Below, in pieces: positions 36,771 through 63,330 of a stretch of DNA of 64,000 nucleotides. Where the stretch lies: assembly GCF_014217805.1 (NCBI RefSeq), contig NZ_CP055156.1, positions 3,788,585 to 3,852,584 of the forward strand, given 5' to 3'. The first letter of the stretch is position 1, and every line of letters starts with the position of its first letter. Below the pieces are notes generated by a model. It was not told the DNA's origin and did no database searches. It saw nothing but the letters and a program-made list of their open reading frames with translations. Both the position numbers and the translations under genes were made by a program. This DNA is from Adhaeribacter swui. Its GTDB lineage: Bacteria > Bacteroidota > Bacteroidia > Cytophagales > Hymenobacteraceae.

Positions 36771-36840
36771 GTTGAAAGGTTGGAAAGTTAGCAGGTTGAA
36801 AAGTTGTAAGGTTGAGTGTGGGTAGGGTTTAAGGTTGGAA
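36771..36840 (+). repeat. Degenerate octamer array, sense orientation (3' of dehydratase)
   Basis: Tandem 8-base units of form GTTNNAAR: GTTGAAAG, GTTGGAAA, GTTAGCAG, GTTGAAAA, GTTGTAAG, and further degenerate units to about 36840. It is complementary to the array at 36959-37030; for example GGTTGGAAAGTTA (36778-36790) pairs exactly with 36959-36971. Confidence 0.75.
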
Positions 36841-36958
36841 AATAAAAAGCTAAAACACCTTACACTAACAATCTGAATTATTTCAGCGCTGGGATTTTTA
36901 AAATTTTAGGGGAGCAGGGTATCAGGCAACGCGCTATTTTAATTGAAAAATAATTATT

Positions 36959-37030
36959 TAACTTTCCAACCTTAAAACTTTCTAACCTTTCAACCTTCTA
37001 ACTTTAAAACTTTCCAACCCTCCAACCCAT
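36959..37030 (-). repeat. Degenerate octamer array, antisense orientation (5' of gntP)
   Basis: Read on the minus strand this is nine consecutive 8-base units beginning with GTT (GTTGGAGG, GTTGGAAA, GTTTTAAA, GTTAGAAG, GTTGAAAG, GTTAGAAA, GTTTTAAG, GTTGGAAA, GTTAAA..). It stops 4 bases before the gntP start codon, so the gntP leader is made of it. Confidence 0.8.
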
Positions 37031-37034
37031 CCCA

Positions 37035-38354
37035 ATGACGATACTCGTTGTTCTCCTCTGCATTATCTCGCTTATTTTATTAATTACCTGGGGCAAAGTA
37101 AATGCTTTCCTCGCATTTCTGATCGTTTCTATTTTCACCGGTCTGGGCTTAGGTATTCCGCTATCGGCCATTAATACCTCGGTGCAAAAAGGCATTGGCG
37201 ATACGCTGGGTTCGTTGGTGATTGTGGTGGTTTTGGGGGCCATGTTGGGTAAATTGGTGGCCGAAAGCGGCGCGGCGCAACGCATTGCCAACGCCATGAT
37301 GTCGGCTTTCGGCGAAAAATACATTCACTGGGCCTTAATGATTACGGGCTTGGTAGTGGGTATTCCGCTGTTTTACAACGTGGGCTTTGTGCTCATGATT
37401 CCCTTGATTTTTTCGGTGGCCTATACCTATAAATTACCTTCGGTGTACATTGGGGTGCCCATGCTTTCGGCTTTGTCGGTAACGCACGGTTTTTTGCCGC
37501 CGCACCCATCGCCGGCCGCTTTGGTTACGCAGTTTAACGCCGATATGGGCTGGACCTTGGTATACGGTTTAATTGTTTCTATTCCGGCTATTATTGTAGC
37601 GGGGCCTGTTTTTGCCAAAACTTTAAAAAACATGGTTTCTAAACCACTCGAAGGTTTTGTGGTGCAAAATATTCCCGCGGAAAAGTTGCCAGGCGTTACC
37701 AACAGCTTATTATCCTCGCTGTTTCCGGTGTTCATGCTCATGTTTACCACCTTGTTTTTGGTTTTTGTACCTAAAGATGGCCTCATGAGCCAAACACTAA
37801 AATTCGTAGGCGAACCCAATATTGTGATGTTGCTGGCAGTAATTCTGGCTACAGTAACTTTGGGCTTAAATCAGGGGCGCAGCATGGCATCCATTATGGG
37901 CGTTTACGGCGATGCCGTAAAAGATGTGGCCATGATTTTATTGATCGTAAGCGGTGCCGGAATTTTAAAACAGGTATTGCTGGACAGCGGCGTTAGCGCC
38001 GAAATTGCTTCGGTGTTGCAAGGCTGGACTTTACACCCCTTGATTCTGGGTTGGCTGATCGCAGCCATTATCCGGGTATGTTTGGGTTCGGCTACGGTGG
38101 CCGGTTTAACTACCGCTGGTATTATTTCGCCGCTCATGAAGCAAATTCCCGTTGATCCTAATTTAATGGTTCTGGCTATTGGGGCTGGTAGTCTTATGTT
38201 TTCGCACGTAAACGATGCCGGTTTCTGGCTTTTTAAAGAATATTTTAATTTATCCATTAAGCAAACCATTCGTTCCTGGTCGATGATGGAAACTTTGGTT
38301 TCTATTGTGGGCATTATCGGCGTAATGGTCATTGATTTTATTATCCGGGCTTAA
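37035..38354 (+). CDS. gntP: GntP family gluconate/aldonate:H+ symporter
   Basis: An inner-membrane permease of 439 residues with about twelve hydrophobic segments. Family marks include GKVNAFLAFLIVSIFTGLGLGI near the N-terminus, ALMITGLVVGIPLFYNVGFVLMIPL, SVTHGFLPPHPSPAALV, LRLSLGSATVA-type sequence (here IRVCLGSATVAGLTTAGI) and SHVNDAGFWLFKEYFNLS. GntP carriers take up gluconate or related sugar acids with protons. The gene follows the dehydratase by 268 bases; together they suggest that an aldonate made outside the cytoplasm, or shared in the environment, is imported and dehydrated. ATG start, abutting the antisense repeat array. Confidence 0.94.
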   Translation: MTILVVLLCIISLILLITWGKVNAFLAFLIVSIFTGLGLGIPLSAINTSVQKGIGDTLGSLVIVVVLGAMLGKLVAESGAAQRIANAMMSAFGEKYIHWALMITGLVVGIPLFYNVGFVLMIPLIFSVAYTYKLPSVYIGVPMLSALSVTHGFLPPHPSPAALVTQFNADMGWTLVYGLIVSIPAIIVAGPVFAKTLKNMVSKPLEGFVVQNIPAEKLPGVTNSLLSSLFPVFMLMFTTLFLVFVPKDGLMSQTLKFVGEPNIVMLLAVILATVTLGLNQGRSMASIMGVYGDAVKDVAMILLIVSGAGILKQVLLDSGVSAEIASVLQGWTLHPLILGWLIAAIIRVCLGSATVAGLTTAGIISPLMKQIPVDPNLMVLAIGAGSLMFSHVNDAGFWLFKEYFNLSIKQTIRSWSMMETLVSIVGIIGVMVIDFIIRA

Positions 38355-38463
38355 TAGGAAAGCTAGCAATAAGCCGTTTTTAAAAAAACAAATACGCTAT
38401 AACCTATAAGCTGGTGTTGTGGATTATTAATAACAAACCAGCCCGAAACAAGATTAAACTTAA

Positions 38464-38832
38464 ATGAATTATACCGCCAAAACCATTCGCACCTTTATTG
38501 GCGCCAAAGATTATAATAGATCCCGGGCATTTTACCGCGACCTGGACTTTGAGGAAGTGGTAATTGGAGATAAGATGTGCCTTTTCCGGGTAAATGAGAA
38601 TTTAGGTTTTTATTTGCAGGATTATGATGTAGCAGATTGGATTGACAATTCCATGGTGTTTTTGGAGGTAGATGATATCGAAAAATGCGCTGAAAGTTTG
38701 CTCCATAAGAATTTACAAAGCAAATACCCGGAAGTAAAATTTACAGAGATCAAGCAATTTGACTGGGGCAGAGAATTGTTTATGACCGATCCAGCGGGAG
38801 TGCTGTGGCACTTTGGTGAATTTAAGAAGTGA
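38464..38832 (+). CDS. VOC family (glyoxalase/bleomycin-resistance-like) protein
   Basis: A cytoplasmic protein of 122 residues with a single VOC fold. The first beta-alpha unit is FIGAKDYNRSRAFYRDLDFEEV, and the C-terminal strand is ELFMTDPAGVLWHFGEF, which carries the usual Glu/His metal positions only in part. Metal-binding cannot be confirmed by eye. Relatives range from glyoxalase I-like enzymes to antibiotic-binding proteins. It sits inside the PUL between gntP and a GH43 gene, which may be chance or may indicate a role in sugar-derived aldehyde handling. ATG start, 109 bases after gntP. Confidence 0.82.
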   Translation: MNYTAKTIRTFIGAKDYNRSRAFYRDLDFEEVVIGDKMCLFRVNENLGFYLQDYDVADWIDNSMVFLEVDDIEKCAESLLHKNLQSKYPEVKFTEIKQFDWGRELFMTDPAGVLWHFGEFKK

Positions 38833-38891
38833 AAAGAATCAACACAACGGTTGTAAACTTATGCTTAAGTTCCCGGCATTTTGTTCTCCAA

Positions 38892-38899
38892 TATTTTTG
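38892..38899 (+). promoter_or_regulatory. Weak candidate -7 box before GH43 gene
   Basis: TATTTTTG fits TAnnTTTG, 47 bases before the chosen GH43 start codon. No matching -33 element was found, and AT-richness makes chance matches likely. Confidence 0.25.
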
Positions 38900-38946
38900 C
38901 TGAGATCAGGTTAAAATTTAAAAAAAATCAGAGTACACCATATATT

Positions 38947-39954
38947 ATGTTAAAAAAAACTTTTCTTATCTGTGGCGCTACGGCTTTACTTACTTTGCCC
39001 GCATTAGCGCAGCAAACCGTTAAAACGCCTTTAACCAAAAAAACGTCCGGTAATCCTATATTTCCGGGCTGGTACGCCGATCCGGAAGGCATTATTTTTA
39101 AAAATAAATACTGGGTATATCCCACTTATTCGGCTCCTTACGAGCAGCAGGTACACCTCGATGCTTTTTCGTCGCCGGATTTAGTAAACTGGACCAAACA
39201 CAGTCGCATTATTGATACGGCTTCGGTTAAATGGGTGAAAAAGGCCATGTGGGCGCCGGCCATTGTGGAAAAAGGAAATAAATATTACTTGTTTTTTGGC
39301 GGCAACGACATTCACGACGATAATAAAGAAGTAGGTGGCATTGGGGTAGCGGTGGCTGATAATCCGACCGGCCCTTTTAAAGATTTATTGGGTAAGCCTT
39401 TAATCGGTAAAATCCATAATAAAGCCCAACCGATCGACCAATTCGTGTTTAAAGATAAAGACAACCAGTACTACATGATTTACGGAGGCTGGGGACGTTG
39501 CAACATTGCCAAGTTAAAAGACGATTTCACTGGTTTTACCCCGTTTTCGGATGGAGTTACTTTTAAAGAAATCACGCCGAAAGGTTACGTAGAAGGTCCT
39601 TTCATGTTTATCCGAAACGGGAAATATTACTTTATGTGGTCGGAAGGTGGCTGGACTGGCCCGGATTACCGGGTAGCTTATGCGGTAAGCGATTCACCAT
39701 TTGGTCCATTCCAACGGATTGGTACCGTGTTGCAGCAAGACCCGAAAGTTGCTACGGGTGCTGGTCACCACTCCGTTATTCAGGTACCCGGCAAAGACGA
39801 ATGGTATATTGTGTATCACCGTCGGCCCTTGGATGAAACCGATGGCAACCACCGCGTAACCTGCATCGACCGCATGTATTTTGACGAGAAAGGCATGATT
39901 AAGCCGGTTAAGATTACCAACGAAGGAGTGGCCAGCCGGCCGTTAAAGAAGTAA
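38947..39954 (+). CDS. Secreted glycoside hydrolase family 43 protein
   Basis: A five-bladed beta-propeller glycosidase of 335 residues with a signal peptide MLKKTFLICGATALLTLPALAQ. The ATG at 38947 is chosen because the longer frame from a TTG at 38881 would bury that signal. Expected GH43 residues: catalytic base Asp in GWYADPEG (about D45), pKa-modulating Asp in QPIDQFVF, and acid Glu in GYVEGPFMF. GH43 enzymes act on alpha-L-arabinofuranosides or beta-xylosides. It has no accessory domain. A terminator follows at 40006, so it may be transcribed apart from the second GH43. Confidence 0.92.
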   Translation: MLKKTFLICGATALLTLPALAQQTVKTPLTKKTSGNPIFPGWYADPEGIIFKNKYWVYPTYSAPYEQQVHLDAFSSPDLVNWTKHSRIIDTASVKWVKKAMWAPAIVEKGNKYYLFFGGNDIHDDNKEVGGIGVAVADNPTGPFKDLLGKPLIGKIHNKAQPIDQFVFKDKDNQYYMIYGGWGRCNIAKLKDDFTGFTPFSDGVTFKEITPKGYVEGPFMFIRNGKYYFMWSEGGWTGPDYRVAYAVSDSPFGPFQRIGTVLQQDPKVATGAGHHSVIQVPGKDEWYIVYHRRPLDETDGNHRVTCIDRMYFDEKGMIKPVKITNEGVASRPLKK

Positions 39955-40005
39955 AATAAACCAAGCTGCAGGGTGGCCATAAGCGCTACTTTATTTTGCG
40001 GCATT

Positions 40006-40049
40006 ATCTGCCAACTTGTATTTATTTCAGGTTGGCAGATTTTATTTTT
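40006..40049 (+). terminator. Terminator after first GH43 gene
   Basis: A 10-bp perfect stem (ATCTGCCAAC / GTTGGCAGAT) with a 15-base loop, then TTTATTTTT, about 50 bases after the stop. Confidence 0.85.
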
Positions 40050-40111
40050 CGGTTATATTTAATTGGAGGCTTAGTATTCCCATTTACTAAAAAGCGAAAA
40101 TTTTAAAAATT

Positions 40112-41725
40112 ATGAAAAAAATTGGACTCGTACTCCTGAGTTGGGTAGTTTTTTCCTGTAATAGTAACAAGTCTTCCGAAGCAGATTCCGGCCAAACCGC
40201 CAGTTCAAATCAGACGACTAAAACGGCTTCGGTTACGTACAACAACCCGGTTTTGCCCGGCGATTACGCCGATCCTTCGGTGGTGCGGGTAGGCGACGAT
40301 TACTGGGCCACAGCTACTTCGTCGGAGTGGGCGCCTTTGTACCCGATTCTGCATTCTAAAAACCTCGTGGATTGGGAAACCGTGGGGCATGTTTTTCCGG
40401 AAAAAGCGCCTGCTTGGGCCGACGCGCATTTCTGGGCACCGGAAATTACTTACGATAACGGCAAGTACTACATTTACTATACAGCCAAGAAAAAAGGCGG
40501 TAATTTGTGCATCGGCGTAGCAAGTAGTACCAAAGCCACCGGCCCTTATACCGACCACGGCCCCTTGGTTTGCCAGGAAGTAGGCTCCATCGATGCCTTC
40601 CCGATCCGCGACGAAAAAGGCGATTTGTATATGGTTTGGAAAGAAGACGGGAACAGCCAAAAGTTGCCCACGCCTATATGGGGCCAGCGTTTAAACGAAG
40701 AACGTACCGCTTTAATCGGCGAACGGTTTGAATTATTCCGCAATGACCCGAAAACCTGGGAAGGTGGCTTGGTAGAAGGTCCCTTTATTTTAAAACGCAA
40801 CGGGTACTACTATACTTTTTACTCCGGCGATGCTTGCTGCGGCCGGGGTTGTACTTACGGGGTAGGAGTGGCCCGCTCTAAAACTTTGCGCGGACCTTGG
40901 GAAAAATACGCATCCAATCCTATCTTAAAACAAAGTGACACCTGGAAATGCGCCGGCCACGGCTCCATTGTTTCGGATGCGCAAGGCCGGGATTTTTACT
41001 TGTATCACGCGTACCAGAAAGATGATTTTGTATACCCCGGCCGCCAAGGTTTGCTGGATGAAATAACCTGGGGCAAAGATGGCTGGCCGCAGTTTGCTAA
41101 AAACGCACCCACTGCTACTGCTGCGGCACCCTTTAACCAGAATGCGCCGGACATTTATAGTTTAATTGAGGAGTTTAACCAGAAAACTTTAGCCGAAAGC
41201 TGGCAATGGCCGGTAAACCAAAAATCAAATTATCAAATTAAACCCGAATCAAATGGGCAGTTGGTAATGAAAGCTTCCCCGGCTGAATTAGGAACGGTGC
41301 TGGCGCAACGCACCTTAACCGGCGATTACACCACCACCACATTGCTCGATAAAAGTAGCCTCTCAAATGGCGCAACCGCCGGCTTGGCCGCCATTGGCGA
41401 CAACAGTAACGCCGTTGGGGTAAGTGTGAGCAAAGGCGATCTGGTATTATGGTCCGTAAAAGATAATAAAGTAACGACGCTGGAAAAAGTAAAAGCCCCC
41501 ACGGAAAACACCGTGCAGTTAAAATTAACAGCTCGTAAAGGCAATAAACTGGAGTTTGCCTGGAGTACCAACGGCACGGCCTGGAACCAACTCAACAAAG
41601 GCCAAGCCATTGACGCCGCTTATCTACCACCCTGGGATCGGGGCGTGCGCACCGGGCTATTTGCCAAAGGCCCGGTAAATACCACAGCGACTTTTGATTG
41701 GTTTAAAGTTGAAAATTTAGATTAA
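40112..41725 (+). CDS. GH43 family lipoprotein with C-terminal beta-sandwich
   Basis: A lipoprotein of 537 residues. The lipobox is WVVFSCNSNKSS (Cys at about residue 16). The GH43 propeller occupies about 45-335, with expected base Asp in LPGDYADPSVV, modulating Asp in GSIDAFPIRD and acid Glu in GGLVEGPFIL, and with WKCAGHGSIV near its end. A C-terminal beta-sandwich (about 355-535, YSLIEEFNQKTLAESWQWPVN ... WFKVENL) resembles the beta-xylosidase C-terminal/concanavalin-like domains that shape the active site of xylosidases and arabinofuranosidases. It is probably surface-exposed. An AT palindrome touches the ATG. GH127 follows after 114 bases. Confidence 0.92.
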   Translation: MKKIGLVLLSWVVFSCNSNKSSEADSGQTASSNQTTKTASVTYNNPVLPGDYADPSVVRVGDDYWATATSSEWAPLYPILHSKNLVDWETVGHVFPEKAPAWADAHFWAPEITYDNGKYYIYYTAKKKGGNLCIGVASSTKATGPYTDHGPLVCQEVGSIDAFPIRDEKGDLYMVWKEDGNSQKLPTPIWGQRLNEERTALIGERFELFRNDPKTWEGGLVEGPFILKRNGYYYTFYSGDACCGRGCTYGVGVARSKTLRGPWEKYASNPILKQSDTWKCAGHGSIVSDAQGRDFYLYHAYQKDDFVYPGRQGLLDEITWGKDGWPQFAKNAPTATAAAPFNQNAPDIYSLIEEFNQKTLAESWQWPVNQKSNYQIKPESNGQLVMKASPAELGTVLAQRTLTGDYTTTTLLDKSSLSNGATAGLAAIGDNSNAVGVSVSKGDLVLWSVKDNKVTTLEKVKAPTENTVQLKLTARKGNKLEFAWSTNGTAWNQLNKGQAIDAAYLPPWDRGVRTGLFAKGPVNTTATFDWFKVENLD

Positions 41726-41839
41726 ACGACAAGCCGGTTAATTACTTGCCACCTTTCCTGCTTTTTAACCTTAAGGCATTGAACACCTACCGGAAGTTTA
41801 ATACTTTTTAATAGCTAATTTTTAAATTTTTGATTTTTT

Positions 41840-43894
41840 ATGAACGCTAAAGTGCTTGCTTCTTCCCTGGCTTTCCTGCTCTTTACTTCTTTTAAACCCG
41901 TAAACACTAATTTCGGCGAAAATACACCGGCGTTTGCCCCCACCTATGTGGCTCCGGTTTATACCGCCTTACCCCTGGGCGAAATTAAACCCAAAGGTTG
42001 GTTGCATAACCAGTTGCAAATCATGCGCAACGGTACTACGGGGCATTTAGACGAAGTTTACCCCAAAATCAAAAACGATAATGGCTGGCTCGGCGGCAAA
42101 GGGGACGCTTGGGAAGAAACACCGTATTGGCTCGATGGCGCCGTGCCACTGGCTTACCTACTCGAAGATAAAACGTTACAAACCAAAGTACTCCGGTACA
42201 TTAACTGGACCCTCGAGAATCAACGACCCTCCGGATATTTTGGCCCGATTACCAAAGAAGAGCGGGAAAAAGGCGTGAAAGTAACCGTGGAAAATTGTTC
42301 GCAAGGCGAGGATTGGTGGCCCAAAATGGTGATGTTAAAAGTAATGCGGCAATACTACACGGCCACGCAAGACCCGCGGGTAATTCCATTTTTTACTAAA
42401 TATTTTGATTATCAGCTTAAAACCTTAAAACAATGCCCCATTGGTAAATGGACCGACTGGGCGGAATCGCGGGGTACCGATAATGTAATGCTGGTACAGT
42501 GGCTCTACGGCATTACTAAAGATCAAAGCTTACTGGAATTAGCTAACCTGATTGATTCGCAATCTTTTACCTGGAGTACCTGGCTGGGTAATCGCGATTG
42601 GGTAATTGGGGCGGCTACCCAGCAAAACGATGCCCACTGGATGCGCCGGCACGGGGTAAACGTAGCCATGGCCATAAAAGCGCCGGCCATAAATTACCAA
42701 CGCACGCAGGATAAAGAATACTTAAGTGCCCTGGACACGGGTTTTAAGGACTTGATGACTTTACACGGTTTGCCTATGGGCATTTTCTCCAGCGACGAAG
42801 ATTTGCACGGCAACGATCCTACCCAAGGTACCGAATTATGCACCATCGTGGAAGCCATGTATTCCCTGGAAGAAATAATTGGCATTACGGGCGATTTGCG
42901 TTATGCCGATGCCCTGGAACGTATGACTTTTAACGCCTTACCTACCCAAACCACCGATGATTACAATGCCAAGCAATATTTCCAGATTGCGAATCAGGTG
43001 CAGGTGAAGCGGGGCGTTTTTAATTTTTCGTTGCCCTTTGAGCGCGAAATGAACAACGTGTACGGCATGCGCAGTGGATATACGTGCTGTTTAGCCAACA
43101 TGCACCAGGGCTGGACTAAATTTACTCAACACTTGTGGTACGGCACCCCGGAGCAGGGCGTAATTGCCATGGCTTACAGCCCCAATCAATTAACCACCAA
43201 AGTAGGAAAAAGCAATACCGAAGTAACCATTAACGAGATCACCAATTATCCTTTTGAAGACCAAGTGAATTTTGAAATTTTTACCAAAAACGAAGTAAGT
43301 TTTCCGCTACAATTACGGGTGCCTGCTTGGTGCCAGGCCCCGGTTTTAAAGATCAACGGCCAAACCGTAGAGGTGCAGCCAGATAAAAATATAATAACCC
43401 TAGACCGAACCTGGAAAAATAAAGATAAAGTAACCCTGCAGCTTCCAATGGAAGTTTCTACCAGCAACTGGGGCCGCAATTCCCGTACCATCGAACGCGG
43501 GCCTTTGGTTTATGCTTTAAAACTGGAAGAAAAATGGGAAAAAGGTATCGATCAAAAAGAAGGCGCTTACTGGAATGTATTTCCGAAATCGGCTTGGAAC
43601 TATGGTTTGCTACAGACCATCGTAAAAGAGCCGGTAAAGAACTTGCAGGTAAAAAATGTAAAACCTGTTACCGATAAATTTGTGTGGAACCTGGCAAACG
43701 CACCAATCCAGATTACCGCCATTGCCAAGAAAATTCCGGATTGGAAAATTGTAAACGATGTTGCTCCCCAACCAGTAACCGACCGTACCGGAATTTATCG
43801 CGGAAGGGTAACACCCACCGTCGAAAAAATAACCTTGGTGCCTTACGGTTGCACGAAAGTCCGGATTGTGGCTTTTCCGGTGGTTCCTAATTAA
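41840..43894 (+). CDS. GH127 beta-L-arabinofuranosidase-like protein
   Basis: An exported protein of 684 residues (N-terminal hydrophobic segment AKVLASSLAFLLFTSF). An (alpha/alpha)6 barrel of the DUF1680/GH127 family is followed by beta-sandwich domains. The zinc-thiolate site seen in Bifidobacterium HypBA1 (Glu338, Cys340, Cys417, Cys418) has counterparts at Glu332 and Cys334 (in GTELCTIVE) and Cys416-Cys417 (in SGYTCCLANM), so the catalytic Cys is conserved. Known members release beta-L-arabinofuranose, for example from extensin-type chains or pectic side chains. This is the strongest clue that the locus targets an arabinose-containing glycan. Last gene of the PUL. Confidence 0.93.
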   Translation: MNAKVLASSLAFLLFTSFKPVNTNFGENTPAFAPTYVAPVYTALPLGEIKPKGWLHNQLQIMRNGTTGHLDEVYPKIKNDNGWLGGKGDAWEETPYWLDGAVPLAYLLEDKTLQTKVLRYINWTLENQRPSGYFGPITKEEREKGVKVTVENCSQGEDWWPKMVMLKVMRQYYTATQDPRVIPFFTKYFDYQLKTLKQCPIGKWTDWAESRGTDNVMLVQWLYGITKDQSLLELANLIDSQSFTWSTWLGNRDWVIGAATQQNDAHWMRRHGVNVAMAIKAPAINYQRTQDKEYLSALDTGFKDLMTLHGLPMGIFSSDEDLHGNDPTQGTELCTIVEAMYSLEEIIGITGDLRYADALERMTFNALPTQTTDDYNAKQYFQIANQVQVKRGVFNFSLPFEREMNNVYGMRSGYTCCLANMHQGWTKFTQHLWYGTPEQGVIAMAYSPNQLTTKVGKSNTEVTINEITNYPFEDQVNFEIFTKNEVSFPLQLRVPAWCQAPVLKINGQTVEVQPDKNIITLDRTWKNKDKVTLQLPMEVSTSNWGRNSRTIERGPLVYALKLEEKWEKGIDQKEGAYWNVFPKSAWNYGLLQTIVKEPVKNLQVKNVKPVTDKFVWNLANAPIQITAIAKKIPDWKIVNDVAPQPVTDRTGIYRGRVTPTVEKITLVPYGCTKVRIVAFPVVPN

Positions 43895-44025: not shown

Positions 44026-44053
44026 GTAAAATACCGAAATATTCTACGCCTAC

Positions 44054-46013: not shown

Positions 46014-46042
46014 CTGCACCGAGCAACGAACAACGAAACAAC
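46014..46042 (-). repeat. Short heptamer array 3' of dienelactone hydrolase gene
   Basis: On the minus strand, units GTTGTTTC, GTTGTTC, GTTGCTC run directly on from the dienelactone hydrolase stop codon region. Same GTT-initial, sense orientation as the other 3' arrays in the window. Confidence 0.55.
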
Positions 46043-47085: not shown

Positions 47086-47122
47086 AATGTCCTATGTCTA
47101 AAACTCAACATCTAATATCCAA
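47086..47122 (-). repeat. Heptamer array 3' of PorP/SprF gene
   Basis: On the minus strand, beginning right after the PorP stop codon: GATATTA, GATGTTG, AGTTTTA, GACATAG, GACATTA. Period 7, with a different unit from the GTTNNAR arrays but the same position and purine-rich sense. Confidence 0.6.
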
Positions 47123-56833: not shown

Positions 56834-56848
56834 TCTGGCTTATTTTTA

Positions 56849-56856: not shown

Positions 56857-56858
56857 CG

Positions 56859-56866
56859 CAAATTTA
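56859..56866 (-). promoter_or_regulatory. Candidate -7 box for the TPR gene
   Basis: On the minus strand it reads TAAATTTG, an exact TAnnTTTG match 25 bases before the TPR gene start. It lies 2 bases from the etfB -7 box on the other strand, so the two polymerase sites overlap. Confidence 0.45.
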
Positions 56867-56891
56867 ATTTTTCTACGTAAACAATTCGCCG

Positions 56892-57629
56892 ATGAAAATT
56901 TTAGTTTGTATAAGTAACGTTCCCGATACCACTACTAAAATATCTTTTTCATCTGATAATAAAGAACTTAACACGGCTGGCGTACAATTCGTAATAAATC
57001 CTTACGACGAATACGCGCTTACCCGGGCCCTTGAACTAAAAGAAAGTTTGGGTGGCACCGTTACTGTATTAAACGTAGGTTTAGCCGATACGGAAGCAAA
57101 TATCCGGAAAGCTTTAGCCATAGGCGCCGATGATGCCATCCGGGTAAACCTGAAACCAACGGATTCTTTTTTGGTAGCGCAGCAAATTGCGGAAGTCGCC
57201 AAAAACGAAGCTTACGATTTAATTTTAATGGGAAAAGAATCGGTGGATTACAACGGAGCCCAGGTGCACGGCATGGTAGCAGAACTGCTGGGTTGGCCGG
57301 CCATTGTACCGGCTATAAAATTAGACGTGGCCGGAAATACGGCTACTTTGGAACGGGAAATTGAAGGCGGTAAAGAAATAGTAAAAGTAAATTTACCCAT
57401 TGTGGTAAGTTGCCAGCAACCCATGAGCGAGCCCCGCATCCCAAACATGCGCGGTATCATGACGGCCCGGACCAAACCTTTAAAAGTAGTGGAGCCGGTT
57501 AGCGGCGAAGCAAAAACCCAAACCGAAGCTTATGCCTTGCCGGAAAAAAAATCAGGCGTAAAACTCATTGATCCGGCCAACGCTGGTGAGCTGATAACGT
57601 TGTTAAGAAACGAAGCTAAAATAATTTAA
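56892..57629 (+). CDS. etfB: Electron transfer flavoprotein subunit beta
   Basis: The AMP-binding subunit (245 residues) of the ETF heterodimer that passes electrons from acyl-CoA and other flavin dehydrogenases to the quinone pool. Typical features: N-terminus MKILVCISNVPDTTTKI, FVINPYDEYALTRALELKE, GADDAIRVNL, ILMGKESVDYNGAQVHGMVAELLGWP and the signature near VVSCQQPMSEPRIPNMRGIMTARTKPLKV. ATG start. The alpha subunit follows after 2 bases, and the bifunctional nuclease gene comes next. Confidence 0.97.
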   Translation: MKILVCISNVPDTTTKISFSSDNKELNTAGVQFVINPYDEYALTRALELKESLGGTVTVLNVGLADTEANIRKALAIGADDAIRVNLKPTDSFLVAQQIAEVAKNEAYDLILMGKESVDYNGAQVHGMVAELLGWPAIVPAIKLDVAGNTATLEREIEGGKEIVKVNLPIVVSCQQPMSEPRIPNMRGIMTARTKPLKVVEPVSGEAKTQTEAYALPEKKSGVKLIDPANAGELITLLRNEAKII

Positions 57630-57631
57630 AT

Positions 57632-58606
57632 ATGTCGGTTTTAGTATTTGTAGAATGTGCCGATGGTAAAGTAAAAAAATCTGCTTTAGAAGCAGCTTTT
57701 TACGGCCACCAGGTAGCTACCCAACTGGGTACATCGGCAGTTGCGGTTGCCATAGGAGAGGTTGCTGCCGACGAATTAAAAAATTTAGGGCAATACGGTA
57801 TTACCAAAGTTTTACACGATACCGAAACCCGCCTAAAAGATTACGTAAGCCAGGCTTACGTTAAGGTAGTAGCCGCGGCCGTTGAAAAAGAAAATGCTAC
57901 GGTAATTGTTTTATCTAACACCAATATTGGCTCCGGAATTGGCGCCCGTTTAGCGGCCCGGTTGCAAGCCAGTTTTGCTACCAATGTAGTTGCTTTACCC
58001 GAACTTGCGGGCAACTCGCTTAAAGTTAAAAAAAGTGTATTTTCCGGCAAAGCCTTTGCCGACGAAGTACTTACGGCGCCCACAAAAATTATAGCGGTAA
58101 AAAAGAATGCTATCGAGGTAAATACCGTAGGTACCCATGAAGCTGAAGTGGAAAGTTTTACTGCTTCGCTTACCGATGCTGATTTTACCGGCGCTCCCAG
58201 GGAAACCATCCGGGCTACCGGCGATGTACTACTCACCGAAGCCGATGTGGTTGTATCGGGAGGGCGGGGCATGCGCGGGCCCGAAAACTGGCATTTAATC
58301 GAAGATTTAGCTAAAGCTTTAGGAGCGGCTACCGCCTGTTCTAAACCGGTGGCCGATGTAGGTTGGCGCCCGCACCACGAGCACGTAGGACAAACCGGCA
58401 TTACCATTAGCCCAAATTTATATATTGCCGTAGGTATATCGGGGGCTATTCAGCACCTGGCCGGGGTAAACTCTTCTAAAGTAATTGTCGTTATCAATAA
58501 AGATCCGGAGGCGCCGTTTTTTAAAGCTGCCGATTACGGAATTGTAGGCGATATTTTTGAAGTAGTACCCAAGCTTATTGAAGCAGCTAAAGCTCTGGAA
58601 AAATAA
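57632..58606 (+). CDS. etfA: Electron transfer flavoprotein subunit alpha
   Basis: The FAD-binding subunit of 324 residues. The N-terminal domain begins MSVLVFVECADGKVKKSALEA. The C-terminal FAD domain shows SGGRGMRGPENWHLIEDLAKALGAATACSKPVADVGW, HEHVGQTGITISPNLYIAVGISGAIQHLAG and VVINKDPEAPFFKAADYGIVGD (each cited in part). All FAD-contact segments are intact. It starts 2 bases after etfB, which implies translational coupling. Confidence 0.97.
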   Translation: MSVLVFVECADGKVKKSALEAAFYGHQVATQLGTSAVAVAIGEVAADELKNLGQYGITKVLHDTETRLKDYVSQAYVKVVAAAVEKENATVIVLSNTNIGSGIGARLAARLQASFATNVVALPELAGNSLKVKKSVFSGKAFADEVLTAPTKIIAVKKNAIEVNTVGTHEAEVESFTASLTDADFTGAPRETIRATGDVLLTEADVVVSGGRGMRGPENWHLIEDLAKALGAATACSKPVADVGWRPHHEHVGQTGITISPNLYIAVGISGAIQHLAGVNSSKVIVVINKDPEAPFFKAADYGIVGDIFEVVPKLIEAAKALEK

Positions 58607-58638
58607 ACAGGAGAAAATATTACACGAGACGATAAACT

Positions 58639-59241
58639 GTGAAAAAAATTCAGTTAGAAATATTAGGATTATCATCCAGCCAGTCACAATCCGGTTCCTT
58701 TGCGCTGGTTTTGGGAGAGAAAGATGGAAACCGGCGTTTGCCAATTATTATTGGTATGTTCGAGGCACAATCAATTGCCATTCAAATCGAGAAAATTAAC
58801 CCCAATCGCCCCTTAACGCACGATTTATTTAAATCTTTTGCGCAGCAGGTGCGCATTATGGTAAAAGAGGTTTTAATTTCGGATTTAAAAGAAGGCGTTT
58901 TTTATTCTAAAATTATTTGTTCCGATGGCCTTCGCGAGTTTGAACTGGATTCCCGACCTTCTGATGCCATTGCCATTGGCTTACGTTTTGGCGTAAATAT
59001 TTATACCGTTGAAAGCGTTTTATCCGAAGCCGGTATTATCCTCAGCGACCTGGAAGAAGAAGAGGAAGAAGATGATAACGAAATAACCAGCTCCAGCAAA
59101 GCCGAGCCGGTTTACGAAAGCAAGGAAAACATAAAAGAAATGAGCGTGGAAGAATTAAATAAAATCCTGATTGAAGCGCTCGATAAAGAAGATTACGAAC
59201 GCGCCGCTAAAATCCGCGACGAGTTAAATAAAAGAAGCTAA
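58639..59241 (+). CDS. Bifunctional nuclease family protein with UVR motif
   Basis: A protein of 200 residues. A BFN (DUF151) domain occupies about 1-140: LGLSSSQSQSGSFALVLGEKDGNRRLPIIIGMFEAQSIAIQ, then FELDSRPSDAIAIGLRFGVNIY. A Glu/Asp-rich linker (about 138-165) leads to a C-terminal UvrB/UvrC-type motif (SVEELNKILIEALDKEDYERAAKIRDEL). Plant BFN proteins have RNase/DNase activity; bacterial roles are unclear. The start is GTG (58639), giving the standard N-terminus. It is 32 bases after etfA, so probably the same operon. A heptamer array begins right after the stop. Confidence 0.93.
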   Translation: MKKIQLEILGLSSSQSQSGSFALVLGEKDGNRRLPIIIGMFEAQSIAIQIEKINPNRPLTHDLFKSFAQQVRIMVKEVLISDLKEGVFYSKIICSDGLREFELDSRPSDAIAIGLRFGVNIYTVESVLSEAGIILSDLEEEEEEDDNEITSSSKAEPVYESKENIKEMSVEELNKILIEALDKEDYERAAKIRDELNKRS

Positions 59242-59246
59242 GAAAG

Positions 59247-59283
59247 TTATAGGTTAAAGGTTCTAAGTTGTAGGTTTTAAGTT
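59247..59283 (+). repeat. Heptamer array, sense orientation (3' of BFN gene)
   Basis: Consecutive 7-base units GTTATAG, GTTAAAG, GTTCTAA, GTTGTAG, GTTTTAA, GTT. The 19-base segment AAGTTGTAGGTTTTAAGTT (59265-59283) is exactly complementary to 59439-59457, with a terminator between them. Confidence 0.85.
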
Positions 59284-59332
59284 CAGCAATTCAGGGGCTT
59301 ATTTTGTGTAGACCTAAATTTAAAAATTTTAA

Positions 59333-59380
59333 AAAAAAGAAGCCTCCCGGATATACGTACATCCGGGAGGCTTCTTTTTT
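59333..59380. terminator. Bidirectional terminator, 20-bp perfect stem
   Basis: Arms 59333-59352 and 59361-59380 pair perfectly with an 8-base loop (ATACGTAC), and T-runs occur in both directions. It separates the BFN gene from the convergent MlaF-like gene and is nested inside the pair of heptamer arrays. Confidence 0.95.
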
Positions 59381-59415
59381 TGGGTTAAAAGTGGCTATTG
59401 TGGTTCCAACAATTT

Positions 59416-59464
59416 TAAACCTATAACCTACAACCTACAACTTAAAACCTACAACTTACCACCT
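59416..59464 (-). repeat. Heptamer array, sense orientation for MlaF-like gene
   Basis: On the minus strand, from the stop codon: GTGGTAA, GTTGTAG, GTTTTAA, GTTGTAG, GTTGTAG, GTTATAG, GTTTAAA. Perfect 7-base phase. It forms the partner arm of the array at 59247-59283. Confidence 0.85.
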
Positions 59465-59467
59465 AAA

Positions 59468-60247
59468 TTAAATGCTTTGAATATCGCCGAGTTCTTCGTC
59501 TACTTTTTTGGCGGCCCGCATTAAAGTGCTGGCAAAGATAAATTCGTTCAGCTCTTTAATTTTGGTGTTCATGATATCGTCTTTGGTGCCTTCCCATACT
59601 TTGTTGCCTTTGTGCATGTAAATAATATGATCACCGATTTCCATTACGGAGTTCATGTCGTGGGTTACCACAATGGTGGTAATGTCGTACTCCTTCGTAA
59701 TTTCGTAAATCAACTCGTCTATTTTAATGGAGGTGAGTGGGTCCAGGCCGGAGTTGGGTTCGTCGCAGAAGAGGTATTTGGAGTTGGGCGCAATGGCGCG
59801 GGCAATACCCACGCGTTTTTTCATCCCGCCGCTTATTTCGGAAGGCATTTTTTTACCGGCATTCTCCAGACCCACCCGCTTTAAACAAAAATTTACCCGT
59901 TCGCGCCGTTCTTCGCGGCTCATGTTGCTGTGCATCCGCAACGGAAATTCTACGTTTTCTTCCACGGTCATGGAGTCGAACAAGGCACCCCCCTGAAACA
60001 ACATGCCTATTTTCCGGCGGATTTCCTGGCGTAAATCTAATTTGTTATTGGTGAACACTTTGCCATCGTACGTAATACTGCCAATATCGGGCTTAATTAA
60101 ACCCACAATACATTGCAACAACACGCTTTTACCGGTACCACTGGCGCCTAACAATAAGCTGGTTTTACCGGATTCAAATACGCCGCTAATGCCGTTTAGT
60201 ACTTTGGTACCGTTGAAAGATTTATGAATATTATGTACTTCAATCAT
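59468..60247 (-). CDS. ABC transporter ATP-binding protein, second MlaF-like
   Basis: An ATPase of 259 residues from the ATG at 60247 (MIEVHNIHKSFNGTKVL). An ATG seven codons upstream (60268) lies within a repeat array, so it is not preferred. Walker A GASGTGKS, DSMTVEENVEFPL (the MlaF-type Q-loop region), signature ISGGMKKR (an SGGM variant of SGGQ), Walker B YLFCDEPNSGLDP and switch His in VVTHDMNSV are all visible. It pairs with the permease at 60464-61192. No MlaD gene is adjacent, unlike at the 6550-9287 operon. Confidence 0.92.
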   Translation of the reverse strand: MIEVHNIHKSFNGTKVLNGISGVFESGKTSLLLGASGTGKSVLLQCIVGLIKPDIGSITYDGKVFTNNKLDLRQEIRRKIGMLFQGGALFDSMTVEENVEFPLRMHSNMSREERRERVNFCLKRVGLENAGKKMPSEISGGMKKRVGIARAIAPNSKYLFCDEPNSGLDPLTSIKIDELIYEITKEYDITTIVVTHDMNSVMEIGDHIIYMHKGNKVWEGTKDDIMNTKIKELNEFIFASTLMRAAKKVDEELGDIQSI

Positions 60248-60253
60248 GTTTTT

Positions 60254-60281
60254 TAGTCCATAGTCCATGGTCTACAGACCA
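60254..60281 (-). repeat. Heptamer array 5' of second MlaF-like gene
   Basis: On the minus strand: TGGTCTG, TAGACCA, TGGACTA, TGGACTA. Period 7, with a different unit. It ends 6 bases before the start codon. Confidence 0.6.
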
Positions 60282-60382
60282 CAGAAGTAACTATATAATT
60301 TAGTGTAGTTTATTTGTATTAGTTAAAATCGTTGCTTGGTAAAGGTGAATAATGATAGTAAATTTTTAAAATTTTAAATTTT

Positions 60383-60472
60383 CAACCACCAACTTTCAAC
60401 CTTTAAACCTTACAACTTTAAAACTTTCCAACCTTCCAACTTTTTAACCCGCAACCTGCAAACTTACAACAA
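60383..60472 (-). repeat. Mixed 7/8-mer array 3' of second MlaE-like gene
   Basis: On the minus strand it starts at the end of the permease gene: the stop codon is inside a GTTGTAA unit. It continues GTTTGCAG, GTTGCGG, GTTAAAAA, GTTGGAAG, GTTGGAAA, GTTTTAAA, GTTGTAAG, GTTTAAAG, GTTGAAA, GTTGGTG. Units of 7 and 8 bases are mixed. An AT palindrome (60361-60383) follows it. Confidence 0.8.
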
Positions 60473-61192
60473 CAGTTTAGCCAGCACAAAGTCGGCAATA
60501 AGTACGGCAATAATGCTTTTAGTAACGGCATTGGTACTGGAGGCCCCTACTTCTAAGGCGCCGCCTTTGGTAAAGTAACCTTCGTAAGAAGAAATAGCCG
60601 AAATTAAAAAAGCAAAAACCACCGATTTAATTAAAGAAAATACAATGTTATACGGCACAAAGGCATCCCGGATACCTTCGATGTATTCGGTGGCGGTTAA
60701 TGCGCCGGTAAATGTACCTGCTACGTAACCACCCCCGATAGATAAAGTCATGGCTACAATTACCAGCATCGGAAACATAATCAGGGATGCAACAATTTTG
60801 GGCAGAACCAAATACGAGGCCGAATTTATACCCATTACTTCCAGGGCATCTACCTGGTCGGTAATTTTCATGGTGCCTAAACCGCCCGCTATATTGGAGC
60901 CCACTTTACCCGCCAGCACAATAGACGTAATGGTAGGGGCCAGTTCCAGGATAGTCATTTCGCGTACCATAAAGCCAATGGTAGAACGCGGAATTAAAGC
61001 ATTGGTGAGGTTATAGGATACCTGCACGCAGGTTACCGCGCCAATAAACGTAGACACTATCGCCACAATAAAAATAGAGTTAATCCCGATCAGAATGGCT
61101 TCGTCGATGGTGCGGTTAAACAAAATCCGGAAGCTTTCGCCCCGGGAAAAAAGACTTCCTATAAAAATTAAAAAGTTACCAAAGGTTCTCAT
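60464..61192 (-). CDS. MlaE family permease, second copy
   Basis: A permease of 242 residues with five to six membrane segments. MlaE marks include IVSTFIGAVTCVQVSYNLTN, ELAPTITSIVLAGKVGSNIAGGLGTMKITDQVDALEVMGINS (cited in part), and the C-terminal ISSYEGYFTKGGALEVGASSTNAVTKS. It has low similarity to the MlaE at 8472-9287, so the two are old paralogues and not a recent duplication. It is the first gene of a two-gene minus-strand unit with the ATPase. The gap of 216 bases between them is filled by repeat arrays. Confidence 0.92.
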   Translation of the reverse strand: MRTFGNFLIFIGSLFSRGESFRILFNRTIDEAILIGINSIFIVAIVSTFIGAVTCVQVSYNLTNALIPRSTIGFMVREMTILELAPTITSIVLAGKVGSNIAGGLGTMKITDQVDALEVMGINSASYLVLPKIVASLIMFPMLVIVAMTLSIGGGYVAGTFTGALTATEYIEGIRDAFVPYNIVFSLIKSVVFAFLISAISSYEGYFTKGGALEVGASSTNAVTKSIIAVLIADFVLAKLLL

Positions 61193-61286
61193 ATAAAGGT
61201 TTTAAGTACAAGCAGCGGGCTAAAAATGCTAAACCGGTCTACAATTGACTATATTACGAGGAAATTCATAAAACTATCGTAAACCT

Positions 61287-62000
61287 ATGCAAAAATATAT
61301 ATTAGTTACTGGCGGCACGAAAGGGATTGGGCGGGCAATTATCGAAAGGTTCGCGGCCGAAGGCTTTCATATAATTACCTGTTCGCGTAAAGAAAGTGAG
61401 CTACGCAAACTAAAGTTAGACCTGCAACAAAAATATACGTTTAGTAAGGTCTTTTACCGCGCCGCTGATTTAAGCGATGCCCTGGACCTGCAAAGTTTTT
61501 TAGATTACGTGCATTCTTTAAAAGTTCGGATTGATGTAATTGTAAATAATGCCGGCATCTTTTTGCCCGGCACCATTCATAACGAGCCGGATACGGTTTT
61601 GCGGCACATGATGGAAACTAACCTGTATAGCGCCTATTTTGTTACAAAATCTTTTGTGGGCGAAATGATTAAACGGCGTAGCGGGCATATTTTTAATATG
61701 TGCTCCACGGCCAGCATTACGCCTTATACCAACGGCGGCTCGTATTGTATTTCTAAATACGCCTTGTACGGCATGACGAAAGTACTGCGCGAAGAACTAA
61801 AAGAACACCATGTAAGAGTAACGGCGGTGCTGCCCGGTGCTACCTTAACTGCCAGCTGGGAAGGTGTAGATTTGCCACCGTCGCGGTTTATCCGGCCCGA
61901 AGATGTAGCCAATGCCGTATTTGGAGCATATCAGTTATCCGATTCGGCGGTAGTGGAAGAACTTTTAATTCGCCCGCAGCTGGGCGATATCGAATCATAA
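61287..62000 (+). CDS. SDR family oxidoreductase
   Basis: A classical short-chain dehydrogenase of 237 residues with intact motifs: NAD(P)-binding TGGTKGIGRAI, structural NNAGIF, Ser in MCSTASITPYTNG, and the catalytic pair in YCISKYALYGMTK. The LPGATLTASWEGVDLPPSRFIRPEDVA stretch follows. The basic residues after the glycine motif (CSRKESELRKL) suggest NADP preference. The substrate is unknown. It is divergent from the second Mla pair and 237 bases upstream of gldA; no obvious functional link. Confidence 0.93.
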   Translation: MQKYILVTGGTKGIGRAIIERFAAEGFHIITCSRKESELRKLKLDLQQKYTFSKVFYRAADLSDALDLQSFLDYVHSLKVRIDVIVNNAGIFLPGTIHNEPDTVLRHMMETNLYSAYFVTKSFVGEMIKRRSGHIFNMCSTASITPYTNGGSYCISKYALYGMTKVLREELKEHHVRVTAVLPGATLTASWEGVDLPPSRFIRPEDVANAVFGAYQLSDSAVVEELLIRPQLGDIES

Positions 62001-62237
62001 AGCAAAGCAGTGTTCTTTAATCAGGTAATTGAGGTATTAGTTGCCTGGGGTTGAAGGGCAAACAGGTTCGCTGCGTATTTTGGAAGGCTGCCGGAATTAG
62101 AAATTTTTAAAAAATTTAATCAGGAGCCATTATTCCGCTATATATTTCGGGCAGTTTCCGCGTTTAAGTACGGGATTAAATAATTCGTTTACTACCAAAC
62201 CCCAGTAAACAAACAGCTAATTACAAACAACGCCAAT

Positions 62238-63149
62238 ATGTCGGTTGAGGTAAAAGGTTTAACAAAAATTTTTGGCACGCAGCGGGCCGTAGATGATATT
62301 TCGTTTGCGGTGCAACCTGGTCAGGTTTTAGGGTTTCTGGGGCCGAATGGCGCCGGTAAATCTACCACCATGAAAATTGCTACCTGCTATTTGCCCCCGA
62401 GTGCGGGCACCATTACCATTAACGGCTACGATGTGCAGGAGTCCCCGATTGACGTGCGGCGCAATGTGGGTTACTTACCGGAGCACAACCCCTTGTACCT
62501 GGATATGTATGTAACCGAGTACCTCACATTTATTGGGCAGCTCTATGGCTTAGCGGGTAAAAATTTAAAAAATAGGGTAGAAGAGATGATTACGCTGTGC
62601 GGCTTAACGGTAGAACGCCGCAAAAAAATCGGTTCTTTGTCGAAAGGCTACCGGCAACGGGTAGGATTAGCCCAGGCGCTTATTCATAATCCGCAGGTAT
62701 TAATCCTGGATGAGCCAACCACCGGACTCGACCCGAACCAGTTGAGTGAAATCCGTAGTTTGATTAAGCAAATCGGGCAAGAAAAAACCGTGTTGTTTTC
62801 CACGCACATTATGCAGGAAGTTTCGGCTATCTGCGACCGGGTTGTAATTATTAACAACGGCAAAATTGTAGCCGATAGCGATGTAGCTTCTTTAAACAGC
62901 TTAGGGCAACAGGAAATAGCCACGCTGGTAGAATTTGAAAGCCCGGTAGAGGTAAGTTTGTTGCAAGGCGTGCCGGGCGTGCAGGAAGTACAACACGTAA
63001 AAGAGTATACCTACCGGATTATTTCCACTAAAAACATGGACATCCGGTCGGCGGTGTTTAGTTTGGCCGCCACGCACAGTTGGAGTTTGGTAGGTTTGCG
63101 CCAGGAAGAGCGTTCGCTCGAAAAGATTTTTCAATCATTAACTAAATAA
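62238..63149 (+). CDS. gldA: Gliding motility ABC transporter ATP-binding protein GldA
   Basis: An ATPase of 303 residues. Walker A is GPNGAGKST, the Q-loop region is VGYLPEHNPLYLDMYVTEYL, the signature is LSKGYRQRVGLAQAL, Walker B is VLILDEPTTGLDP, and the switch His is in LFSTHIMQEV. The PEHNPLY string and C-terminal extension (about 215-303, ending LRQEERSLEKIFQSLTK) match GldA of gliding Bacteroidota. GldA with GldF and GldG forms an ABC transporter associated with gliding; GldF is encoded just downstream. ATG start. An internal AT palindrome near 62562 encodes KNLKN. Confidence 0.93.
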   Translation: MSVEVKGLTKIFGTQRAVDDISFAVQPGQVLGFLGPNGAGKSTTMKIATCYLPPSAGTITINGYDVQESPIDVRRNVGYLPEHNPLYLDMYVTEYLTFIGQLYGLAGKNLKNRVEEMITLCGLTVERRKKIGSLSKGYRQRVGLAQALIHNPQVLILDEPTTGLDPNQLSEIRSLIKQIGQEKTVLFSTHIMQEVSAICDRVVIINNGKIVADSDVASLNSLGQQEIATLVEFESPVEVSLLQGVPGVQEVQHVKEYTYRIISTKNMDIRSAVFSLAATHSWSLVGLRQEERSLEKIFQSLTK

Positions 63150-63165
63150 ATAATTTTTAAAAAAA

Positions 63166-63195
63166 TGATGAATTAGAAATTAAAAATTAGAAATG
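63166..63195 (+). repeat. Heptamer array 3' of gldA
   Basis: Units of AATTAGA type (AATTAGA, AATTAAA, AATTAGA, AATG). The segments TGAATTAGAAATTA (63169-63182) and GAAATG (63190-63195) together match the reverse complement of 63297-63316, except that one extra 7-base unit (63183-63189) is present here. Confidence 0.8.
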
Positions 63196-63242
63196 ATAAA
63201 TCATGTTTGTCATATGCTGGTTAGTGGAGAGTAGCTCTATAA

Positions 63243-63266
63243 GTCGTTTGTGAAGACACAAACGAC
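63243..63266. terminator. Hairpin between gldA and gldF
   Basis: A 10-bp perfect stem (GTCGTTTGTG / CACAAACGAC) with an AAGA loop. No T-run follows, so it may be a processing or stability element instead of a terminator. It is nested between two complementary heptamer arrays. Confidence 0.55.
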
Positions 63267-63296
63267 GGCATTGAAAATCAGGAATCTTTAACGAGC

Positions 63297-63330
63297 CATT
63301 TCTAATTTCTAATTCATAATTTCTAATTAA
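63297..63330 (-). repeat. Heptamer array 5' of gldF, antisense orientation
   Basis: On the minus strand it reads AATTAGA, AATTATG, AATTAGA, AATTAGA, AATG. It ends 7 bases before the gldF start codon and pairs with the array at 63166-63195. Confidence 0.8.

Follow-up and report, generated by a model that had tools for sequence, protein, structure and literature searches.

Why would a bacterial genome set short, phased tandem repeats of differing sequence at the very borders of its genes, and in one orientation? This question is raised by a 64,000-nucleotide (nt) stretch of Adhaeribacter swui (contig NZ_CP055156.1; G000:C3:3788585-3852584 in our numbering), here called the window, in which ten degenerate arrays of 7- or 8-nt units occupy intergenic space. 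A sequence-only reading of this DNA had pointed out that the units differ from locus to locus and that period, position and polarity do not. We find that the arrays point from the gene edge into the spacer, and that, where a spacer has two of them, these are inverted relative to each other and usually alike in type.

The host genome is 6.2 Mb. Our own-genome sample comprised 19 stretches of 20 kb, 15 of them taken blind at round coordinates and four (L032-L035) placed near known arrays; L194, which overlaps L032, was dropped. The blind own set, 193 spacers and 46 kb from the 15 stretches, is a sample and not the whole genome, and within this genus (congeners G001 to G007) the array scan covered spacers only. 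Gene borders were taken from a simple custom codon-model caller, with neighbours named from Pfam. AT-only runs (12 of the 50 blind own arrays) were set apart, and the 38 arrays with a G+C content of at least 0.10 were kept. Such AT-only runs, TTTTAAA/AATTTTTAAAATTTT with a period of 7-9, are frequent in spacers (window 1975, 15206, 19681, 31677, 60359 and others), and their polarity is not clear.

Position and polarity of the arrays at gene edges

Most arrays lie very close to a gene. Among the 38 blind own arrays, 31 were within 12 bp of a gene edge, where random placement averaged 9.5 and never exceeded 16 (1000 draws); in the blind G005 set the count was 8 of 12, with a random mean of 3.8 and maximum of 8. 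For arrays within 40 bp of an edge in a larger set, the median distance to a stop was 4 bp and to a start 7 bp. Both the larger polarity set and the paired-spacer set described below include targeted loci, and G004 rows were excluded from polarity and orientation counts.

Thirty-two blind own arrays lie no more than 20 bp from an edge, and a 4-mer model trained on G005 arrays oriented 30 of them inward; one of its two misses is a spacer in which both arms have merged. A count of G over C on the same 32 arrays gave 27 inward, three not and two ties. Polarity relative to stops and starts is not random in the sampled arrays, a point on which the sequence-only reading had staked its case. That reading worded the rule as GTT after stops and its complement before starts, which is equivalent to saying that the arrays run inward from the gene edge. 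Words seen inward include GTTNNAAR, GTTRCAR, TAGTCNA, AATTAGA, GTANCAR and others, and by reading the rule is also kept by words that are not C-poor, such as TAGTCNA.

Divergent spacers are avoided, with edge arrays in 2 of 132 divergent spacers versus 72 of 558 other blind spacers (Fisher p=1.7e-5). In the 78 co-directional spacers with an array at one edge only, the start edge carried it 41 times and the stop edge 37 times. Arrays before starts are about as common as those after stops, so a reading of the arrays as terminators, to be checked by Term-seq mapping of transcript 3' ends, is only partly apt. A terminator-only role was rejected on this near-equality and on the separate hairpin that lies between the arms at 59242-59467. 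Insurance of stops in several frames was rejected by reading, because GTTRCAR runs hold no stop in any frame. Genes for tRNA and tmRNA, whose edges bear on whether polarity is set at the DNA or the translation level, numbered only seven across the 60 sources, too few for this purpose.

Arrays in one spacer form matched inverted pairs

Sixty-five spacers carried arrays at both edges (25 in G000, 24 in G005, 11 in G006 and five in G003). Their arms are tandem 7-8 nt arrays and not single imperfect palindromes. Each arm was, on the whole, more like its partner than like arms from elsewhere (0 of 2000 permutations, n=30), mostly because the arms of these first 30 pairs are of similar type, and arm type matched within the spacer in the full set (0 of 300 permutations, n=65). 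Across a gene there was no type match in a small sample (187 of 300 permutations, n=10), which suggests that the unit is the spacer; a gene-cassette reading, in which the arrays would be the ends of a mobile gene, was rejected on the same result.

Similarity between arms also goes beyond type. In 22 GTTNNAAR pairs, the longest exact match averaged 15.5 nt to the own arm and 13.2 nt to foreign arms (14 of 3000), and exact arm matches of 27-28 nt occur in L044, L054 and L231. Matches of at least 12 nt were in register from the gene edges, to within 8 bp, in 17 of 33 own versus 81 of 288 foreign cases (binomial p=0.004). By reading, some spacers such as L056 and L057 hold nested types in mirrored order. 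When 100 one-edge spacers were examined (six of 106, shorter than 100 bp, were left out), the opposite edge fell in the top 5% of similarity 23 times in the inverted sense and nine times in the direct sense. Paired spacers are predicted to fold strongly, into hairpins that run the length of the spacer, 52 of 62 with z<-2 (20 shuffles each; three of the 65, longer than 420 bp, were left out). With the own right arm in place of arms swapped in from the same genome and period, the energy was lower by a mean of 4.2 kcal/mol (-4.2) and lower in 38 of 60 cases (p=0.005).

The GTTNNAAR unit has a fixed core and freer positions. Across 437 units from 79 arrays chosen for unit fit, the fixed positions were 91-97% conserved, partly by that choice. 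C is rare at the two N positions (0 and 4%), which otherwise hold G, A or T, and A or G stands at position 8. As judged without a quadruplex program, these 437 units contain no fixed G run of length three or above, and neither do the other types by reading.

In L065 of G005, at 14592 and 17205, pairs of TGAATGAG/TGAATGAA words with periods of 4 and 8 are inward by reading, and at L034 15843-16334 two inward GTTRCAR arrays enclose a gene of about 380 bp, as though a gene could take the place of the middle.

Periodicity in the genome and in relatives

The sequence-only reading had proposed to look for an excess of period 7 and 8 over shuffled spacers, and this excess is present in the sampled spacers of the own genome, G006, G003 and G005. 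Self-match of each spacer was compared with 20 shuffles to give a z per lag. In the 193 blind own spacers z reached 16.1 at lag 7, 10.9 at lag 8, 9.5 at lag 14 and 5.6 at lag 16, and lag 3 was also above shuffles (z 6.3). Segments scoring at least 12 numbered 30 at lag 7 (0.5 expected), 28 at lag 8 (0.8), eight at lag 9 (0.6) and three at lag 6 (0.1), with none at lags 4, 5, 10, 11 and 12. Units of 7 nt and of 8 nt both occur.

In blind samples of relatives, the lag-7/lag-8 z was 11.9/6.1 in G006, 5.7/3.9 in G003 and 5.1/3.7 in G005. Segments scoring at least 12 at lags 7 and 8 numbered 20 and 13, 14 and 5, and 9 and 4 in the same three genomes, each with fewer than one expected. Congener G004 showed no excess (z 1.1/-1.6), with 2 and 3 such segments versus 1.7 and 0.8 expected, and is nearly array-free, a low-threshold edge array being found in 3 of 231 spacers. 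A clean 7/8 picture is clouded by z in the relatives, which also ran high at lags 4-6: at lag 4 it was 8.1 in G006, 6.5 in G003 and 7.3 in G005, the last above its own lag 7, and in G004 was 7.0-9.1 at lags 4-6. Segment counts, unlike z, single out lags 7 and 8 in G006, G003 and G005, and do not in G004.

Orthologous spacers and the middles of pairs

Place and polarity of the arrays can be kept between species while their sequence changes. At L049:7859-7980 the type switches at both edges, by reading, from GTANCAR in G000, G006 and G002 to GATRTTR in G003 and TAGAYRY in G005, with arrays in the same place and polarity across species and with flank identity of 84-91% in G003, G005 and G006 and 73-78% in G002. 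The spacer orthologous to L044 holds in G002 a CAGTTAG/CTAACTG pair, related by reading to the TAACTGA word of MacGregor discussed below. The AATTAGA-type pair at 63150-63337 is readable in six of the seven congeners (G006, G005, G003, G002, G001 and G007), with differing middles; in G004 this spacer holds no arrays and is 11 bp by gene call or 17 bp by extrapolated alignment, next to the same ATPase C-terminus.

Other window arrays have counterparts as well. The middle of the gntP pair is kept in G006 (83% over 136 bp), and by reading the G006 right array contains a 16-bp, two-unit repeat missing in G000, plus other indels and substitutions. Runs like 60254..60281 were read in the G006, G005 and G003 orthologs, and the G006 ortholog of the spacer with 47086..47122 ends in a similar run, again by reading. 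The G006 ortholog of 59242-59467 has a hairpin and no arrays.

Sixty-one of the 65 pair middles were compared (four under 30 bp were left out), with a median of 106 bp. Of 1830 pairs of middles only 37 match, and most of these matches are due to arrays, AT-rich stretches or short palindromes; one is the gntP ortholog itself. One GC-rich body, up to 149 bp and 80% identical, is found in the L051 and L054 middles, with parts in L057 and L203. No element body was common to the whole set of 61 middles, and most pairs have none in common, because the matches left after the GC-rich body and the gntP ortholog lie in arrays, AT-rich sequence or palindromes.

Dispersed palindromes also lie in this DNA. 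One, GTCGTTTGTGAAGACACAAACGAC followed by GGCATTG, occurs in the window at 63233-63280, mid-pair, and in L033 near 12525; it looks REP-like (repetitive extragenic palindromic) and recurs in G003, G006 and elsewhere in the own genome. Two more palindromic families lie between arms, GCGAGCG...CCTCTGGCCGG (up to 149 bp) and TCCCCCTTTGGAGGGGG, with sites in the L203, L051, L054 and L057 middles and at L034 6930 and 13952.

The same word and rule in other phyla

When species-representative genomes were searched for exact matches to four GTTNNAAR units, at least 115 stretches were returned, 80 with titles, and the other 35 served as a hold-out. The stretches are not independent: metagenome bins account for many of those listed, and one bin supplied several. 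Titles among the matches listed cover Bacteroidota (Pontibacter, Mucilaginibacter, Algoriphagus), Verrucomicrobia, Lentisphaera, Chloroflexi and Planctomycetota. To say that sequence is not conserved was too strong, as the same unit types turn up at many loci and GTTNNAAR also outside this phylum.

The counts that follow all apply to the matches listed. Arrays within 30 bp of the edge of an open reading frame (ORF) kept the inward rule in 48 of 57 cases (31 of 36 in the 80 loci and 17 of 21 in the hold-out), and at all distances the rule held for 51 of 68 and 23 of 28, respectively. GTTNNAAR arrays were mostly intergenic, with 14 of 128 inside ORFs; in the 80 titled loci, 12 of 92 arrays were inside ORFs and 12 were without flank. 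An inverted partner 20-300 bp away was inward for 26 and outward for none of 115 arrays, and direct copies for the first 84 arrays lay downstream in 11 cases and upstream in eight. Cross-phylum pairs of other types numbered only nine, the inverted match being better in six, the direct in two, with one tie.

In G114, of the same phylum as A. swui, a reversed GTTRCAR control pattern scored 43 and 28 matches, and this genome seems to have RACRTTG-like arrays of its own.

The ten arrays of the window

Each window array was scored by its best lag-7 or lag-8 segment against 500 dinucleotide shuffles of its own stretch (Table 1). Nine of the ten arrays described as phased exceed their shuffles, eight of them at 0/500, and 47086-47122 on its own does not. 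One polarity fits all ten by reading. By gene calls seven follow a stop, and all seven carry the GTT or purine-rich sense on the coding strand, as had been reported (by reading). The complement is found before the genes for the GntP permease and the GldF-like permease, also as reported, and a third start-side array that had gone unnamed, before the MlaF-like ATPase gene, agrees. The label MlaF-like is taken from the MlaE neighbour, its Pfam match being ABC ATPase. Intrusion of an array into the MlaF C-terminus was rejected, that C-terminus being identical in G006 and nearly so in G003.

Table 1 Short tandem arrays at gene borders in the window, with strand, neighbouring gene and lag score
Array	Position	Strand	Neighbour and side	Score and shuffles reaching it
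GTTNNAAR octamer array, left arm of inward pair	36771..36840	+	4 bp 3' of IlvD/Edd dehydratase stop	lag 8, 14; 2/500
GTTNNAAR octamer array, right arm with 36771..36840	36959..37030	-	directly before GntP permease start	lag 8, 25; 0/500
Short heptamer array, GTTGTTC-like on minus strand	46014..46042	-	stop side of dienelactone-hydrolase-family gene	lag 7, 11; 0/500
Weak GATATTA/GATGTT-type array	47086..47122	-	stop side of PorP/SprF gene	104/500, not significant alone
GTTNNAR heptamer array, left arm	59247..59283	+	after stop of bifunctional-nuclease-domain gene	lag 7, 14; 0/500
GTTNNAR heptamer array, right arm with 59247..59283	59416..59464	-	after MlaF-like ATPase stop	lag 7, 24; 0/500
TAGTCCA heptamer array, left edge of MlaF/MlaE spacer	60254..60281	+	start side of MlaF-like gene	lag 7, 10; 0/500
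GTTNNAAR octamer array, right edge of MlaF/MlaE spacer (mixed-type pair)	60383..60472	-	stop side of MlaE	lag 8, 26; 0/500
AATTAGA/AATTAAA heptamer array, left arm	63166..63195	+	after ABC ATPase gene stop	lag 7, 13; 0/500
AATTAGA-type array, right arm with 63166..63195	63297..63330	-	before ABC-2 permease (GldF-like) start	lag 7, 16; 0/500

The gntP spacer, with the pair at 36771-37030, is predicted to form one long hairpin (z -3.06), and a 20-nt exact string is common to the arms 59247..59283 and 59416..59464. Between the latter arms, at 59340-59385, lies a terminator-like hairpin (CCTCCCGGATATACGTACATCCGGGAGG plus a T run), which the G006 ortholog has at the same place with another stem sequence. 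The window has no Rfam match at gathering scores.

Relation to described repeats

Cyanobacterial short tandemly repeated repetitive (STRR) heptamers form tandem arrays between genes. REP sequences and bacterial interspersed mosaic elements (BIME) are inverted and extragenic and occur in spacers that are transcribed through rather than in divergent ones. A REP is a single palindrome of about 35 nt; the present arms differ in being tandem arrays, with palindromes between the arms in some spacers.

Closer precedents come from two papers, cited here for the portions available to us, so that the view that no element like this had been described does not hold and the present arrays are not a kind without precedent. 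PMC4692102 (presumably Rehm et al.) reports degenerate heptamers GGGAATC and GGGGA(C/T)T in Xanthomonas and Nostoc, mostly intergenic. They lie nearer the 5' neighbouring ORF whatever its direction (on average 28 versus 160 nt in Xanthomonas), few are found between divergent genes, their place is conserved while their length varies, and in one Xanthomonas most are transcribed. Convergent inverted pairs number 70 in Xcc and 75 in Xac, with only a few in Nostoc. The present arrays resemble them in being inward, mostly intergenic, found in convergent inverted pairs and rare between divergent genes. Those repeats are G-rich and form quadruplexes in vitro, with one word per species studied, whereas the present arrays are AT-rich, of 7 or 8 nt and of many types per genome, and their type changes in concert at one site.

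MacGregor 2015 (PMC4679880) describes TAACTGA intergenic direct repeats, most of which lie directly upstream of starts and share an orientation. Of 14 sets in F. litoralis, 12 are forward before a start and one is reversed after a stop, which is compatible with the inward rule. A small Microcystis sample of 22 intergenic sets has six forward to a start, eight reverse and eight between stops, and the rule is not plain there. TAACTGA is a single word, inverted pairing is not stated as a rule in the available portion of that paper, and by reading the unit is absent from the ten window arrays. The same source cites Mrazek et al. 2007 for heptamers as the commonest 5-11 nt repeat class in most genomes, with polymerase slippage proposed, and the citing passage mentions neither polarity nor pairing.

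In the open-licence literature we found nothing closer to a Bacteroidota-specific or general account of inward pairing. The present arrays are an AT-rich, multi-type, non-quadruplex variant of poorly understood, already described repeats. New here is that the rule does without G-tracts, that it covers a variety of words within a genome as well as a single word in several phyla, and that the two arms of a spacer can switch type jointly.

How the arrays may arise

In the blind own samples and in relatives, arrays with different units have period, position and polarity in common, so a common process is likely. The suggestion of one mechanism for all arrays stands to that extent; it had passed over the rule that the arrays are inward inverted pairs with type-matched arms. 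The best account, to which we give a probability of about 0.42, is that the arrays are products of slippage whose arms are homogenised by hairpin template switching and which are tolerated where spacers are transcribed through. Arrays would grow and shrink by replication slippage, which is supported by length change in unit steps. The two arms of a spacer would exchange sequence by hairpin-mediated template switching, and their type would so stay matched; coupling of the arms is supported by their similarity of type, their register and their joint type switching. Of the processes known, hairpin-mediated template switching is the simplest that would give such coupling. Arrays would persist only in transcribed-through spacers without an essential promoter, and their scarcity between divergent genes could result either from purging at promoters or from a requirement that transcription cross both arms. 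The hairpin of paired arms may act as an mRNA boundary, much like REP pairs.

Several points weigh against this account. Slippage alone predicts neither inward polarity nor fixed cores with free N positions, nor the same degenerate unit, GTTNNAAR, in different phyla; polarity would need a strand-asymmetric step of growth or erosion. Template switching is inferred and not observed directly. In 106 of 171 edge-array spacers an array was detected at one edge only, and polarity persists there (93 of 106), so a hairpin is not required for the inward rule; six of the 13 misses are, by reading, whole spacers with both arms merged. Early tests of arm match within type were not significant (378 of 2000, n=6; 312 of 2000, n=15), the register excess is weaker at 15 nt (9 of 18 versus 39 of 127) and 18 nt (5 of 11 versus 13 of 39), and mixed-type pairs exist. 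Low folding energy follows trivially from any inverted pair. Finally, the gene-side half was cleaner than the inner half in 34 of 79 arrays, dirtier in 12 and equal in the rest, which is not what simple growth at the inner end predicts.

A tentative alternative, which we consider somewhat unlikely, is that the arrays are selected RNA elements, parts of untranslated regions in which a C-poor run after a stop, a G-poor run before a start or a joint hairpin would set mRNA ends, stability or translation initiation. It accords with the tight spacing from stops and starts, the strong folding, the cleaner outer units and the keeping of position while sequence changes, as well as with the avoidance of divergent spacers, in which the two arms are never on one transcript. 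Yet the TAGTC and TAGAYRY types carry C and by reading keep the polarity, most array spacers have only one detected arm, G004 and the G006 ortholog of 59242-59467 do without arrays, and the window lacks Rfam matches.

It is improbable that the arrays serve as binding sites at gene borders for a nucleoid or RNA-binding protein recognising a 7-8 nt word. A fixed core with free N positions, seen in arrays chosen for fit, would suit such a protein, and binding of S1, Csp or Csr has been proposed for TAACTGA (PMC4679880), but many words obey one rule, even at one orthologous spacer, and a single binding protein does not explain that.

Strand-specific writing at DNA ends would have a telomerase- or terminal-transferase-like enzyme add C-poor 7-8 nt repeats to 3' ends averted from the gene, followed by rejoining into inward pairs of one type. 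One polarity whatever the unit type, arms of similar type, the mirrored nested types in L056 and L057 and the same unit in many phyla among the matches listed accord with this. There is also a likeness to DRT10, a telomerase-like bacterial reverse transcriptase with an anti-phage function and a cDNA product, which makes 9-nt tandem repeats, precise in the best-studied system (PMC12632851, available portion). However, the array-rich genomes G005 and G022 have no match to RVT_1 (PF00078), which a divergent reverse transcriptase could escape, so that writing by such an enzyme is unlikely to be general. Ku was found in 1 of 17 genomes (G022) and in 0 of 8 of this genus, outer units are cleaner, and the terminator-like hairpin survives between the arrays at 59242-59467. 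We regard this explanation as very improbable. Four equal-scoring 458-amino-acid reverse transcriptase matches in G006 (C1:2677729, 4154061, 5830043 and 5849056) are perhaps group II intron copies.

Least probable of all are terminal inverted repeats of miniature inverted-repeat transposable elements, for although the ends are inverted, switch type together at one site and are sporadic among congeners, and the GC-rich body recurs in a few middles, the matches between middles are few and mostly of arrays, AT-rich runs and palindromes, and most array spacers are one-armed.

Meaning of the inward rule

A wider and doubtful proposition is that a single strand-specific process, at work in many phyla, writes or keeps short repeats one way, away from gene ends, whatever the word. 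If this is true, the inward rule would be a general feature of the way intergenic DNA forms or erodes, and the arrays of Xanthomonas, Beggiatoaceae, cyanobacteria and Bacteroidota would be local dialects. Should the rule prove general, the intergenic heptamer arrays that now go by several names would be one phenomenon with one unexplained asymmetry, and quadruplex formation could not be its cause, since the present arrays lack G-tracts. The joint change of type at both edges of a spacer offers a handle for catching the process in strain comparisons. The arrays edge many operon spacers and could there influence the processing of mRNA as well as mislead annotation and assembly.

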